Both the position numbers and the translations under genes were made by a program. Positions 26,286 to 32,285 of a DNA stretch of 64,000 nucleotides are shown piece after piece. Where the stretch lies: positions 1 through 64,000 of the forward strand of contig CACAIK010000002.1 of NCBI GenBank assembly GCA_902532525.1, read 5' to 3'. The number at the start of each line of letters is the position of its first letter. Position 1 is the first letter of the stretch. Under the pieces are notes generated by a model. The model made no database searches and was not told the DNA's origin. It saw only the letters and a list, made by a program, of their open reading frames with translations. Source of the stretch: an uncultured Pelagibacteraceae bacterium. GTDB taxonomy: Bacteria > Pseudomonadota > Alphaproteobacteria > Pelagibacterales > Pelagibacteraceae.

Positions 26286-28877
26286 TTAATTATAAATTTT
26301 GTCTCTTACAAGCTTACTTAACAAACTATATCCAAGTTCGTTCATATGTAGTGGATCTTCATCATAAAACTTATCATAACCTGCATTTATCATTGGTGTT
26401 GTAATATCAACATAATCCCACATTTTTAAATTAGTTAAGTATTTTTTTATCTTTGAATTTGCATCTAAAATTGTTGTCATAAGGTCTCTTCTAAAAGGAC
26501 TAGGCTTAATTGAAATAAAAAAACATTTTGCATTTGGTAGTTTTTCTTCAACTTGGTTAGAAAATAATGAAAATTCTTTTAACAATTCATCACTATCCAT
26601 TCCATAACCAATATCATTATCTCCAGCATAAAAGAAAAGATTGGATGGGTTTAAAGGAGCAACCAGTCTATCAAAATATCGTCTACAAGATACTAAAGTT
26701 GAACCTCCAAAACCTAAATTATAAAGATTATTTATTGATAAATCATTTTTAGCATTATCCCACATTTTAAAAGTTGAACTTCCATACAAGGCAACACTGT
26801 TATTTGTTTTCGTCTGTTGAAAAGAATTATGTTCTAATTCTCTAACATCTAATTCAAACTCTTCTTCAACTGGACTAACTAAATTTACATTAGTTTTCAA
26901 ATTTTCTATTTTATCTATGTTGTCTTGAACATTTTTAGCTAAATCAATAGCTTCTTCTACATAAGATCTAAATTTGGTTCTGTAATTTTCTAAGAAGCTT
27001 TTCATTTCCTCTAGATTTTCTGGATCTTTGACATGATCACTTATAGTTATTGGCTCCTTAATAACTGCTGAATATATTGTTTTAGAAACTGGATAATCAA
27101 AATTAGCAAGAGCAATTGGAATAAGTTTTGGTTTTGGGTTAAGTTTAAATGCAAGGTTAAATGCTCCAGCTTTGAATGGTCCTGGAGATGTTATTGTTTT
27201 ATTATCTTCTGTTTCTGATGTTCCTTCGGGGGCAATTACAATCGGTTGTTTTTGATTAAATACCTTTTGAGCTTCATCAAAAAGCTTTTGTTTTCTTAAT
27301 TTCTTTTCCTCTTCGCTTTCGTCCAACTTATCAGACTCTGGGGTATGAACAAAAATGTAATCTAAATTTTCATAGTAATTATATCTCCAAAATTCTGTGT
27401 TCCGACTTGTTCTAACGATACGTTGGCCTCCATCATTATATTTTGGATGTAATATTTTTGAACTGATAAAATGACTGTCGATTGAAAATGAATGCCCATT
27501 TGCAAGCTGGTTATCATCTATAGCAGCTAAGTGATTGTAGAAAAAAATATTTGTTGGTTCATCTGGCAAATTTTCCCAACCCTTAATTATATATTTAACA
27601 TTATCAAAAGCTTTAGTAAAATTTGAATTGGTTAACTCTCTTAATTTTGTTTTATCTGAATTACTAGAAGAATTTGAAACTCTATTATAAATAATATTTA
27701 ATTGGCTGTGGAAACGAGACTCTCTTTCTAAATTATTTAAGGTATCTTTTATTAAACTAGATAATGATTTTTCTATCTCATTTCCTTTAATAATTAGTTC
27801 GTAAACAACATCAAATGCCATTGCATAAGTATGAGTACTCTTCAATAAATGTGGAATACTATATAACTTAGAACTAGCAGGTATTCTTGCGGTATTATCT
27901 TTCAATAATAAATTAACAAATTCTAATTCGTTTTCTGCTGAATATTTTGTTAGACCAGTTGCACTTTGTTGGAAACGTCCTAACTGCCACAATTGTCTTT
28001 TGAAAATCTTTATTGATAATTCAGGGTCAGAAATAATCAGATTTTCAAGTGCTTCGTTGGAAATATGTAAAACTTTTGTATCCCTGGTAGATTTAATTGT
28101 ATATGGATTAAAAAAATCTCCTTTCCCGGAAGATAAAGTTAGAGCAATACCAGCTCTAGTTAGAGTTCTAAAATTTCTTCTTATTTTTCCATTAATAAAG
28201 TTATGGAATAAGCCATCAACTTTACCACTTAATAATATCTTTAAACCTTTAGAAACATCTCCCTCTTTAACTATATATTGATTTGATGAATACATCTTAA
28301 TATTACCTAATTTAATAAACTTTTCTAAGTCATCATCAGTAAGTGTTGAAAAAAAAGTAGCAGATTTAATTCTATGTATATTTGTAATACTTTTTTCTGA
28401 TGGGATGCCTGGAGATATTTGTATTTCATCATCTTTATACAAAGTGTTTAAATTTCTTGAAGAGACAAGCAGTTGGAAAGAAAAAAACGAAATGGCTGAG
28501 TATAATGTTGATATAAGTTTACTATTTTTTTGTTGTAAATCCCTTAAATCATCTAGTTTTATGGAGATATATTCTGTTCCACCTTCAATAAATATTTCAC
28601 CCATAAATCTATTGGGTTGATTAAGTCCAGATATACCTAATGGTGTTGCAGGCTTTGTTATTTTTGCAAAGGTTATAGATTTTTTTTCAAAATACTTGGT
28701 AAATGTAGCTTTGCCTTTAATTAAAAAATAAATGTTTTCTGAAATTTGATGCTGCTTTGCTAAAACTTCATCACTTTCAGCTATTATATGTTTTGATATT
28801 CCATCTATTAAGTCATAATATTCTTTTAGATTTCCTAGATCAAAGCCATTTTGCTCAAATAATTCAGATAATTTCAT
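26286..28877 (-). CDS. Four-module fusion: two cNMP-binding-type domains, acyltransferase, SGNH hydrolase
   Basis: 863 residues. Residues about 1-135 and 170-300 look like two cyclic-nucleotide-binding-type barrels (ENIYFLIKGKATF; YIVKEGDVSKGLKILLSGKV). Residues about 440-640 are a PlsC-type acyltransferase: H449-x4-D454 in NHLAAIDD and the acyl-acceptor motif APEGT (E551). Residues about 690-863 are an SGNH/GDSL hydrolase: block I GSSTF (699-703), block II GFGGS, block III GDND (752-755) and the Asp-His pair D841/H844 in DPLHMNELG. Every catalytic motif is intact. No membrane anchor is seen. A nucleotide-gated enzyme that both transfers and removes acyl groups is suggested but unproven. First gene of the exported-protein block. 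Confidence 0.82.
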   Translation of the reverse strand: MKLSELFEQNGFDLGNLKEYYDLIDGISKHIIAESDEVLAKQHQISENIYFLIKGKATFTKYFEKKSITFAKITKPATPLGISGLNQPNRFMGEIFIEGGTEYISIKLDDLRDLQQKNSKLISTLYSAISFFSFQLLVSSRNLNTLYKDDEIQISPGIPSEKSITNIHRIKSATFFSTLTDDDLEKFIKLGNIKMYSSNQYIVKEGDVSKGLKILLSGKVDGLFHNFINGKIRRNFRTLTRAGIALTLSSGKGDFFNPYTIKSTRDTKVLHISNEALENLIISDPELSIKIFKRQLWQLGRFQQSATGLTKYSAENELEFVNLLLKDNTARIPASSKLYSIPHLLKSTHTYAMAFDVVYELIIKGNEIEKSLSSLIKDTLNNLERESRFHSQLNIIYNRVSNSSSNSDKTKLRELTNSNFTKAFDNVKYIIKGWENLPDEPTNIFFYNHLAAIDDNQLANGHSFSIDSHFISSKILHPKYNDGGQRIVRTSRNTEFWRYNYYENLDYIFVHTPESDKLDESEEEKKLRKQKLFDEAQKVFNQKQPIVIAPEGTSETEDNKTITSPGPFKAGAFNLAFKLNPKPKLIPIALANFDYPVSKTIYSAVIKEPITISDHVKDPENLEEMKSFLENYRTKFRSYVEEAIDLAKNVQDNIDKIENLKTNVNLVSPVEEEFELDVRELEHNSFQQTKTNNSVALYGSSTFKMWDNAKNDLSINNLYNLGFGGSTLVSCRRYFDRLVAPLNPSNLFFYAGDNDIGYGMDSDELLKEFSLFSNQVEEKLPNAKCFFISIKPSPFRRDLMTTILDANSKIKKYLTNLKMWDYVDITTPMINAGYDKFYDEDPLHMNELGYSLLSKLVRDKIYN

Positions 28878-30596: not shown

Positions 30597-30788
30597 TTAA
30601 AGACTTATTTTGAAAGTTCTTGAAGTTTTGTCGTCTGATACTTTTAAAATTTTAAATTTTGAAGTTTTTTCAAGTTTTTGCCCTTTGTTTGTAACAAAAG
30701 ATTTCATTTTCTTAACTTCACCTTCTGGCATTTTTCTAGTGTATTTCAAAGTATGTTTTTTTGATCCAATAACAAATATTGTTTTCAT
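30597..30788 (-). CDS. Small basic protein of unknown function (63 aa)
   Basis: 63 residues, basic, starting MKTIFVIGSKKHTLKYTRK and containing KMPEGEVKKMKSFVTNKGQK. The alternation of strands suggests a small folded domain. No family recognised. Nine bases upstream of the photolyase on the same strand. Confidence 0.5.
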   Translation of the reverse strand: MKTIFVIGSKKHTLKYTRKMPEGEVKKMKSFVTNKGQKLEKTSKFKILKVSDDKTSRTFKISL

Positions 30789-30897
30789 GAGATTTTAATT
30801 ACAAATATATTTATTGTCTGTCTCTGTGACATAAGTTTCATTTAAGAGTTTTGGAATATTTTTATTATTTTGATATCGAGAATCTACTAAAGAGATA

Positions 30898-30954
30898 GGT
30901 TGTATTCAAATAATTTATTTATAAAAAATAGAAATAAATTTGTTGAATACAACC
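30898..30954. repeat. 57-base inverted repeat
   Basis: Outer arms GGTTGTATTCAA / TTGAATACAACC are perfect, and inner arms AATTTATTT / AAATAAATT extend the pairing to about 23 bases with a short mismatch, leaving an 11-base loop. It ends just before the ribosome-binding hairpin. It is either an operator, an RNA stem or a small repeat element; only one copy was noticed. Confidence 0.75.
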
Positions 30955-30991
30955 TTCCTTAAACTTATTTTTATAAGTGAAGGAGGTGCAA

Positions 30992-31021
30992 ATGCTTAGA
31001 ATAACGCCACCTGACACTTAG
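30992..31021 (+). CDS. Nine-codon reading frame MLRITPPDT
   Basis: ATG with AGGAGG five bases upstream, the best ribosome binding site in the window, then codons for MLRITPPDT and TAG. Pro-Pro-Asp is one of the sequences known to slow ribosomes without EF-P, so this may be a leader-type peptide whose translation matters more than its product. That role is inferred. Confidence 0.45.
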   Translation: MLRITPPDT

Positions 31022-31092
31022 CTGGTGAGATATCACATATTAAAAATAACACAAACTAAATCCATTTGATGGATTTGGCCAAAATGGCATAA

Positions 31093-31138
31093 AAAAGGGG
31101 AGCTCTTTTGGTAATAACCAATTGAGCTGACCCCTTTT
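31093..31138. terminator. Bidirectional terminator
   Basis: AAAAGGGG (31093-31100) pairs with CCCCTTTT (31131-31138), AGCTC with GAGCT inside it, and TTGGT with ACCAA at the tip around AATA. On the minus strand the stem is followed by a T run and ends the aminotransferase, overlapping its stop codon; on the plus strand it can end the candidate small RNA. Confidence 0.85.
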
Positions 31139-32285
31139 AATAATTTTTAGACATAAAATCTTTAATTCTCTTAGCACCTTCAATTATATCTTTTGTGCTT
31201 CTGGCATATGAGAATCGGATAGTAGAATTTCCTCTTTTTTGATCAAAATCAATTCCTGGTGTTATCGCAACATTTGCTTCATCTAAAACTTTTTTACAAA
31301 AAGCTAAGCTATCATTTGAATATTCAGATATATCAACATAAATGTAAAAAGCACCATCAGGTGGTGAAAACTTTTTTAATCCTGCCTTCGGTAATTCTTC
31401 TAAAAGTATCTCTCTATTTTTTTTATATACTTCAACATTTGATTGTAACTCCTCATTTGCATCTAATGAAGCAAGAGCTGTAACTTGACTTGCATGTGGA
31501 GGACAAACAAATAAATTCTGTGAAAGCCTTTCTACTTGTCTAACATGATCATCTGGTACAACCATCCATCCTATTCTCCAACCAGTCATAGAAAAGTATT
31601 TTGAAAAAGAATTAATTACATAGCAATTATCTGTAATCTCTAAAGCTGATGTTGGATTATTTTCATATTGAATTCCATGATAAATTTCATCACTAATAAA
31701 ACTTACATTATTCTCATTTGCAGTATTAATTAAATTCTCTAAAGATTGTTTATCCAGCATAGATCCAGTTGGATTTGCAGGTGATGCAACAAGAATTCCA
31801 TTTAAATTATTATTTGTAATATCTTCTGGAACAGGTTGAAATCTATTTTGTAGTTTGGTTTGAATATCTACAGTTTCCAAACTTAGTGATTTAAGTATTT
31901 GTCTATAGCTAGGATAACTTGGAGATCCAATTCCAACTCTGTCTCCACTGTCAAACAATGCAGAAAACGATAATATAAAGGCTCCGGAAGACCCTGTTGT
32001 AACTACTATTCTATTTGGATTTAAATCTAAATTGTACCAATCTCCATATAATTTTGAAATTTTTGTTCTTAAAGCTGGTAGACCAAGTGATACTGTGTAA
32101 CCAAGATTATTTTTATTTATCTCATTTGTAATATAATCTTTCGCAATCTTAGGTGCTGGTGTTCCCGGCTGCCCTACCTCCATATGAATTATATCTTTAC
32201 CTTTTTCTTCAGCAATTCTAGCAGACTCCATTACATCCATTACAATAAATGGATCAACATCTGATCTTTTTGATTTTTTCATCAT
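31137..32285 (-). CDS. PLP-dependent aminotransferase, class I/II
   Basis: 382 residues of the aspartate aminotransferase fold. VVTTGSSGAFILSFSALFD is the cofactor phosphate loop, VASPANPTGSMLD (residues 167-179) the NPTG motif, FISDEIYHG the Asp-Tyr pair, and SFSKYFSMTGWRIGW carries the Schiff-base Lys K229. The Arg that binds the substrate carboxylate is in TIRFSYARS. Substrate unknown. The start overlaps the stop of the 68-residue gene (ATGA), and the gene ends at a bidirectional terminator. Confidence 0.9.
   Translation of the reverse strand: MMKKSKRSDVDPFIVMDVMESARIAEEKGKDIIHMEVGQPGTPAPKIAKDYITNEINKNNLGYTVSLGLPALRTKISKLYGDWYNLDLNPNRIVVTTGSSGAFILSFSALFDSGDRVGIGSPSYPSYRQILKSLSLETVDIQTKLQNRFQPVPEDITNNNLNGILVASPANPTGSMLDKQSLENLINTANENNVSFISDEIYHGIQYENNPTSALEITDNCYVINSFSKYFSMTGWRIGWMVVPDDHVRQVERLSQNLFVCPPHASQVTALASLDANEELQSNVEVYKKNREILLEELPKAGLKKFSPPDGAFYIYVDISEYSNDSLAFCKKVLDEANVAITPGIDFDQKRGNSTIRFSYARSTKDIIEGAKRIKDFMSKNY

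Follow-up and report, generated by a model that had tools for sequence, protein, structure and literature searches.

Positions 30980–31138 of the DNA analysed here are, judged by comparison of sequences between genomes, one copy of an RNA family of the Pelagibacteraceae (SAR11), made up of an exceptional Shine-Dalgarno (SD) site, a micro-ORF of 6–10 codons, an A+U-rich linker and three hairpins. We read the locus as a free-standing small RNA gene of about 160 nt, whose micropeptide ends in Pro-Pro-Asp/Glu and which would likely act in trans by means of a ribosome paused at its 5′ end; we give this reading a probability of roughly 0.45. The whole stretch that was analysed, 64,000 nucleotides of contig CACAIK010000002.1, is termed the window, and features lie on its plus strand unless marked otherwise.

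The Shine-Dalgarno site and the micro-ORF

The SD site AAGGAGGTG (30980–30988) is a full 9-base match and is separated by three bases from the ATG of the micro-ORF (30992–31021), whose nine codons and stop read ATG CTT AGA ATA ACG CCA CCT GAC ACT TAG, giving MLRITPPDT. The first-pass annotation of this DNA had picked out the frame and called its ribosome binding site exceptional, and both statements hold. For comparison, 54 ORFs in the window have 150 aa or more; none of them exceeds an SD match of 6 bases (reached by two ORFs), three bases short of the match at the micro-ORF, and 35 have no match of 4 bases or more.

A search pattern based on the ORF gave, together with 20 BLAST loci, 139 loci, all of which show the SD, the ATG and PPDT-stop; because the pattern itself uses the ORF, this result is no proof of conservation. 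The codons were assessed in 78 loci, 68 of them distinct, that came from whole-block BLAST or from a covariance model, the queries for which include the ORF columns without requiring them. Across the 68 distinct copies, codons 2–4 of the PPDT block are invariant at positions 1 and 2 and codon 1 is changed in just three copies, which have Leu in place of the first Pro. Each of the four sense codons varies at its third position, and all three stop codons (TAG, TAA and TGA) are used. On a tree of 67 copies built from columns outside the ORF block, 20 sense-codon changes fall at third positions (an Asp-to-Glu change among them) and 1 at positions 1 and 2 (binomial p = 4e-9); the remaining copy, L185, ends at a contig edge and is excluded from the tree and from all linker and spacing lengths. 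With drift nearly limited to third positions, the ORF evolves like code: it is under codon-level selection and, by extension, probably translated.

What is kept lies at the end of the frame. P-[D/E]-x-stop is present in 68/68 distinct copies and Pro-Pro in 65, in each case followed by Asp or Glu, as it is in all five additional copies from the genera designated g9 and g12. The N-terminal codons and the length are free: GGAGG with an in-frame ATG 0–11 nt downstream is found in 66 of the 68, and these 66 encode 26 different peptides of 6–10 residues, if the ATG closest to the SD is taken as the start codon (a few copies are ambiguous, such as MIMNLSPPDT, which could also be read as MNLSPPDT). 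The peptide is MSPPET in g12 (6/6 genomes) and MSPPEI in g9 (three genomes), with Glu in place of Asp in both and Ile in place of Thr in g9. The three genera share the core P-[D/E]-[T/I]-stop, and Pro-Pro is missing only from the three Leu-Pro copies; the emphasis that had been placed on Pro-Pro-Asp was apt, in that conservation centres on PP[D/E], Glu replacing Asp in the two other genera.

The three Leu-Pro copies are of two kinds. L182 reads MLNLPDT, yet its SD, start and hairpins are intact. L183 and L184 (genomes G255 and G169) read LPDT, have no start codon and a weakened hairpin P2, and one of them has a damaged SD; they look like decayed copies, in which the parts decay together. Rfam gave no match at these two loci. 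Further downstream of both is an ORF that resembles SOUL proteins (named by eye), and such a gene adjoins the SAR11_0636 motif in the portion of PMC2704228 that deals with it.

Conservation of codons at the C-terminus and of the stop is also what would be expected of a recognition signal at the end of a released peptide. The locus could then be a micropeptide gene whose product, 6–10 residues long, is recognised by its C-terminal PP[D/E]T, the hairpins serving only to stabilise the mRNA; microcin C offers a precedent for a gene of seven codons. This fits poorly with the freedom of length and of N-terminal residues, with the change of Thr to Ile in g9, and with a 3′ domain that is more conserved and more elaborate than the protection of an mRNA seems to need. 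Moreover, the neighbouring ORFs differ between lineages, so that no partner enzyme or exporter travels with the RNA, and we consider the micropeptide gene unlikely.

Alternatively, the region around the ORF may be the seed of an ordinary base-pairing small RNA, which translation merely tunes. Copies from g1 hardly differ over an 18-nt block around PPDT-stop-CTG, and near-matches to the complement of this block, AAGTRTCAGGTGG, occur in 15/15 genomes, well above a reversed-pattern control (6 versus 0 in G000). Substitutions in the block track codon positions, however, and the CTG that follows the stop is lost in g9 and g12. When 20 near-matches were viewed, two proved to be the RNA gene, and the remaining 18 fell within open frames whose sequences differ, SGG being encoded in 10; no recurrent mRNA target near a gene start was seen among these 20, which came from one pattern search of 15 genomes. 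A seed of this kind is, in our judgement, quite unlikely.

The 3′ domain

Downstream of the stop codon an A+U-rich linker (31022–31057; 36 nt in the window) leads to hairpin P2 (31058–31076; AAATCCAT TTG ATGGATTT), hairpin P3 (31078–31088; GCC AAAAT GGC) and a terminal hairpin P4 with an asymmetric internal loop (31093–31138). Both sides have changed in 5/6 modelled pairs of P2, in 3/3 of P3 and in 6/10 of P4, where 98–99% of cells are paired. Over the three hairpins, in an alignment of 45 rows fitted to the model, 97% of cells are paired and 14/19 pairs have double changes versus 6.7 in shuffles, a value that was reached in 0/500; the 45 rows include, and count, one spurious antisense row (L017, minus strand). 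An independent MAFFT alignment of 32 copies gave 94.8% of cells paired and six pairs with double changes. RNAalifold, run without an imposed structure, found P2 and P4 with eight double-change pairs and did not find P3; in the nine copies from g9 and g12 it again placed P2, P3 and P4, P2 being without variation there, and the P3 loop in these nine is of the GNRA type (GAAA or GAGA).

Spacing within this region is tight (0–5 nt between P2 and P3, 7–10 nt between P3 and P4) compared with the loose linker, which is 29–48 nt long with a mean GC content of 23% in 67 distinct copies. This describes P2–P4 as a compact 3′ domain. The stable stems noted at first pass are borne out, with a fold z of −6.2 over 30953–31138 (186 nt) and covariation in relatives of all three hairpins. 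A longer stretch (30890–31145) reaches z = −9.4, much of it from an upstream inverted repeat that is argued below to be a DNA signal. Taken by itself, the segment that runs from the SD to P3 has only slight structure in the window (z = −1.7).

Two further structural proposals did not survive. The CACCT of the micro-ORF had been thought to choose between the SD and a downstream GGTG, and neither pairing looks like a conserved alternative. The SD:CACCT pairing is formed in 83.7% of cells versus 82.9% in shuffles (1/500 as high), with four double-change cells and a fifth pair that fails in 37/47; it lies near shuffle level because its inner bases hardly vary. The CACC:GGTG pairing is formed in 55.2% of cells versus 54.8% (84/500 as high; covariation score 5/500). 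P4 had likewise been taken for a strong terminator, which is defined by a hairpin followed by a U-tract; there is no conserved U-tract among the copies, and a simple scan does not call P4 a terminator.

We also considered an antiterminator-like pairing between P3 and the 5′ arm of P4. It can be drawn by eye in many g1 copies, is absent from copies of the L018/L019 type and is lost in g9, and it was set aside. In the g9 and g12 copies L228–L231 and L295–L299 a further inverted repeat seems, by eye, to start directly after the stop; its sequence differs between copies, RNAalifold did not place it, and g1 has no clear equivalent.

Upstream DNA and the predicted promoter

Sequence before about position 30975 is probably promoter and operator DNA. 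A box GATATCGAGAATCTACTAAAG (30872–30892), likely promoter or regulator DNA, is largely kept in same-genus relatives just 5′ of a dyad, the left half of which is GGTTGTATTCAA (30898–30909) and the right half TTGAATACAACC (30943–30954). The left half is present in 133 distinct upstream regions with at most 3 mismatches and mostly with 0, and in 125 of the 133 exactly 33 bp separate it from the TTGAA half. Among the eight exceptions, L146, L013 and L088 were anchored wrongly by the script, and in them too the second half lies at 33; the gap is 32 in L075 and 22 in L018, which is shorter by one helical turn, the case of L041 is unclear, and L228 and L229 belong to g12. In the right half the TTGAA-type half is conserved and ACAACC occurs in part of the lineages only. 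A gap that is constant in length and variable in sequence suggests the geometry of protein bound to DNA rather than an RNA loop.

The right half includes TTGAAT, a candidate −35 element, and 17 bp on is a candidate −10 element, TATTTT (30966–30971). Together they make a plausible promoter, with the 5′ end of the RNA predicted at about 30977–30980; a scan for consensus promoter hexamers scored no better than in shuffled AT-rich DNA. Transcription starts for a SAR11 strain are reported in a section of PMC5069720.

A start just before the SD would strip from the RNA the left arm of a hairpin that had been proposed to enclose the SD (30953–30986). As a conserved RNA element this hairpin was rejected: in the closest relatives (L002–L006), which are 97–98% identical, its left arm is altered from CCTTCCTT to CCTACCTA, and it coincides with the predicted promoter.

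A search for an operator regulon, at no more than 1 mismatch, gave matches in 18/21 genomes, about the control level. A third exact AGGTTGTATTCAA lies in the window's own genome but outside the window (G000:C2:129146-129158) and is possibly a second member of such a regulon.

Distribution in the Pelagibacteraceae

The family is present in three genera, g1, g9 and g12. BLAST with positions 30880–31145 found the block in 20/27 same-genus genomes of a 147-genome family sample. A covariance model, R1, was built from 32 distinct copies; the ORF pattern search had supplied 20 of these, so that the ORF is known to the model. At E ≤ 0.01 it matched in 60/121 same-genus genomes, many of them incomplete, and in 55/121 once five weak matches (G192, G220, G256, G242 and G155) had been removed as chance after viewing. 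Among same-genus genomes that are at least 90% complete, 13/19 carry the RNA (G155 removed), one of the 13, G255, in degenerate form. Models R1 and R2 placed it in 6/6 genomes of g12 and in three of g9, out of at least eight g9 genomes in the sample. Matches in G119, G112, G057, G028, G083 and G059 were also dropped as chance after viewing, G113:C2, G347:C3, G357 and G313 were dropped on score alone as weak, and antisense matches on the RNA itself were dropped. The covariance search of relatives that the first-pass annotation had proposed as a check returns both a conserved block and stems with compensatory changes.

Beyond the family the RNA was not seen. Under strict filters, which could overlook distant relatives, only three carriers turned up among 240 genomes of the class (E ≤ 0.001), all from the same family, and an order sample of 147 yielded g1 and g12 only. 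The pattern search matched at least 119 contigs, and all 80 titles among those listed are Pelagibacteraceae, Pelagibacterales or Candidatus Pelagibacter; viral contigs had 0 matches to the exact pattern. Because genomes that are 99% complete and without a match exist in the same genus (for example G043 and G051), the RNA family is accessory or dispensable.

No family in Rfam 15 matches the RNA. At gathering level there is no Rfam match in the window or in 10 loci; with 12 loci at E ≤ 0.1 the single match is IS009 in L231, away from the RNA, and in a permissive scan over the block the best match has E = 0.61 and lies on the opposite strand. No earlier description was found in the literature, for the most part open-access papers, although an earlier unnamed sighting is possible, for instance in the 2009 work on small RNAs in ocean metatranscriptomes.

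Genomic context

No plus-strand gene follows the RNA in the window, as had been stated at first pass, and ARAGORN found no tRNA or tmRNA there. The nearest neighbour is a convergent aminotransferase gene (31137–32285, minus strand; a 382-aa ORF named by reading its sequence), whose stop codon is overlapped by the foot of P4. The nearest downstream ORF is likewise convergent in 133/133 of the 139 pattern loci that have one in reach and in 67/67 distinct copies of the second, overlapping set. These ORFs fall into six sequence clusters of at least three members, which differ between lineages; read by eye, they are aminotransferase-like, methyltransferase-like or, in g9 and g12, often folD-like. 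One exception lies outside the 67-copy set: in G040 (L295, g12) a 68-aa ORF on the same strand lies about 75 nt past P4.

Some other features of the neighbourhood may be recorded here. A 63-aa ORF just upstream (30597–30788, minus strand) is found beside the RNA in 26 of the clustered loci. Inside the aminotransferase gene, at 31352–31366, a PPDG codon run forms a similar hairpin with a terminator-like call on both strands, which is likely coincidental coding sequence. An 863-aa ORF (26286–28877, minus strand) combines stretches that by eye are cyclic-nucleotide-binding-like, acyltransferase-like and SGNH-hydrolase-like.

The arrangement of an SD, a short ORF and a terminal hairpin resembles an attenuator, and the same-strand ORF in G040 would suit a leader that controls a downstream gene; control of the convergent aminotransferase in cis had also been suggested. 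An SD and a short ORF are indeed present, as in leader peptides. A same-strand gene to be regulated is found in 0/67 distinct copies, however, and competing folds are not conserved (the two folds named earlier were tested, and other alternatives were compared by eye). With neighbours that are convergent and vary between lineages there is no conserved leader, and the aminotransferase is swapped for other ORF families elsewhere and so is under no general control in cis. A cis leader or attenuator is accordingly the most improbable of the explanations weighed here and very nearly dismissed. The other suggestion of the first-pass annotation, that of a small RNA which is translated and is no ordinary leader, agrees with the codons, the covarying stems and the convergent neighbours, L295 excepted.

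A proposed ribosome-parking mechanism

The extreme SD, with nothing downstream, makes a ribosome-loading, ribosome-pausing RNA that is read in trans the simplest reading. Transcription would start a few bases 5′ of the SD, from a promoter with a dyad operator. The very strong SD would load a ribosome, which would make a peptide of 4–8 residues and slow with Pro-Pro in the P site and Asp or Glu next. The working part would be the nascent chain inside the ribosome and not a released peptide, since conservation is confined to the position of the stop and to the residues that adjoin the catalytic centre. The parked ribosome would cover the 5′ region of the RNA, and a change in EF-P, in charged tRNA or in general translation capacity would change its occupancy. 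This in turn may alter how stable the RNA is, or the access open to a partner that the P2–P4 domain holds.

An EF-P gene was found in the window's genome, which is one of 8/11 genomes searched that have EF-P. In the E. coli data drawn on here from PMC4140641, the PPX sites at which PPD occurs are all pausing ones, PPE appears in the list of EF-P-dependent pauses, and EF-P relieves the pause. Several findings count against the mechanism. L182 is intact with Leu-Pro, which means that Pro-Pro is not absolute; Thr is kept after Asp in g1, although a pure PP[D/E] pause does not need it; some 99%-complete genomes do without the RNA; G040 has a same-strand ORF; the complement search, though rich in near-matches, gave no recurrent target; and the predicted promoter hexamers score no better than shuffled DNA.

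A strong SD before a frame of 6–10 codons, in which PP[D/E] would lengthen residence, could also belong to a minigene that brakes translation by sequestering ribosomes, EF-P or tRNA-Thr/Ile through drop-off, as the lambda bar minigenes do. Such a minigene leaves the covarying 3′ domain unexplained, and we regard it as very unlikely.

Comparison with known systems

As a ribosome-parking RNA, the SAR11 RNA would work like an attenuator leader without an operon, yet it lies outside the definition of a leader, with neither a conserved downstream gene nor conserved exclusive folds. The nearest functional precedent found is rnTrpL/peTrpL of Sinorhizobium meliloti, whose leader peptide peTrpL is described in PMC7298713 as acting in trans. 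It too comes from a short alphaproteobacterial ORF of the attenuator type; such peptides, however, originate from attenuators that precede a gene, whereas the SAR11 RNA has no downstream operon. In further contrast, the SAR11 ORF has 6–10 codons, ends in PP[D/E]x-stop and is followed by three covarying hairpins.

Structured intergenic RNAs have been proposed in the same organisms. The relevant portion of PMC2704228 lists Pelagibacter candidates at rpsB, rpsL and ffh, a methionine-biosynthesis motif and four minor motifs, and the motif beside SAR11_0636 is also thought there to be separately transcribed. As far as these descriptions go, the motifs occupy other loci and contexts and no ORF is described for them, which sets them apart from the SAR11 RNA. 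Of the motifs in that portion, the permissive Rfam scan brought up bablM alone, with a chance-level score (E = 9.9). The EF-P-dependent PPX pauses, for their part, include PPD and PPE as E. coli pause motifs in the data used from PMC4140641, where they sit inside ordinary proteins, whereas the SAR11 motif makes up a large part of the whole ORF.

Small RNAs of dual function provide another comparison. SgrS, which contains the ORF of SgrT, is like the SAR11 RNA a free-standing RNA with an ORF. RNAs of this type have longer ORFs and known base-pairing targets, whereas for the SAR11 RNA no target was found in the complement search.

Significance for SAR11

At the broadest, the locus may be a free-standing ribosome-parking RNA in the ocean's most abundant heterotrophic bacteria, consisting of little besides a perfect ribosome binding site, a Pro-Pro-Asp/Glu stall and a folded tail, and reporting EF-P or translation capacity elsewhere in the cell, in effect an attenuator detached from any operon; we offer this as a tentative and, on present odds, rather doubtful proposal. 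Known leader peptides combine the sensing of the ribosome with control of an operon in cis. If the proposal is true, a stall-bearing ORF without a downstream gene would separate these two functions. The family also illustrates that evolutionary evidence by itself can reveal an ORF of 6–10 codons to be coding.

The genomes of SAR11 bacteria are reduced and encode few transcription regulators, and the bacteria are thought, in the part of PMC13198564 that treats them, to rely on post-transcriptional control. Despite this reduction, many SAR11 bacteria retain the block, which spans about 270 bp. The RNA would give SAR11 physiology a candidate translation sensor, and one that is short enough for direct tests in vitro.
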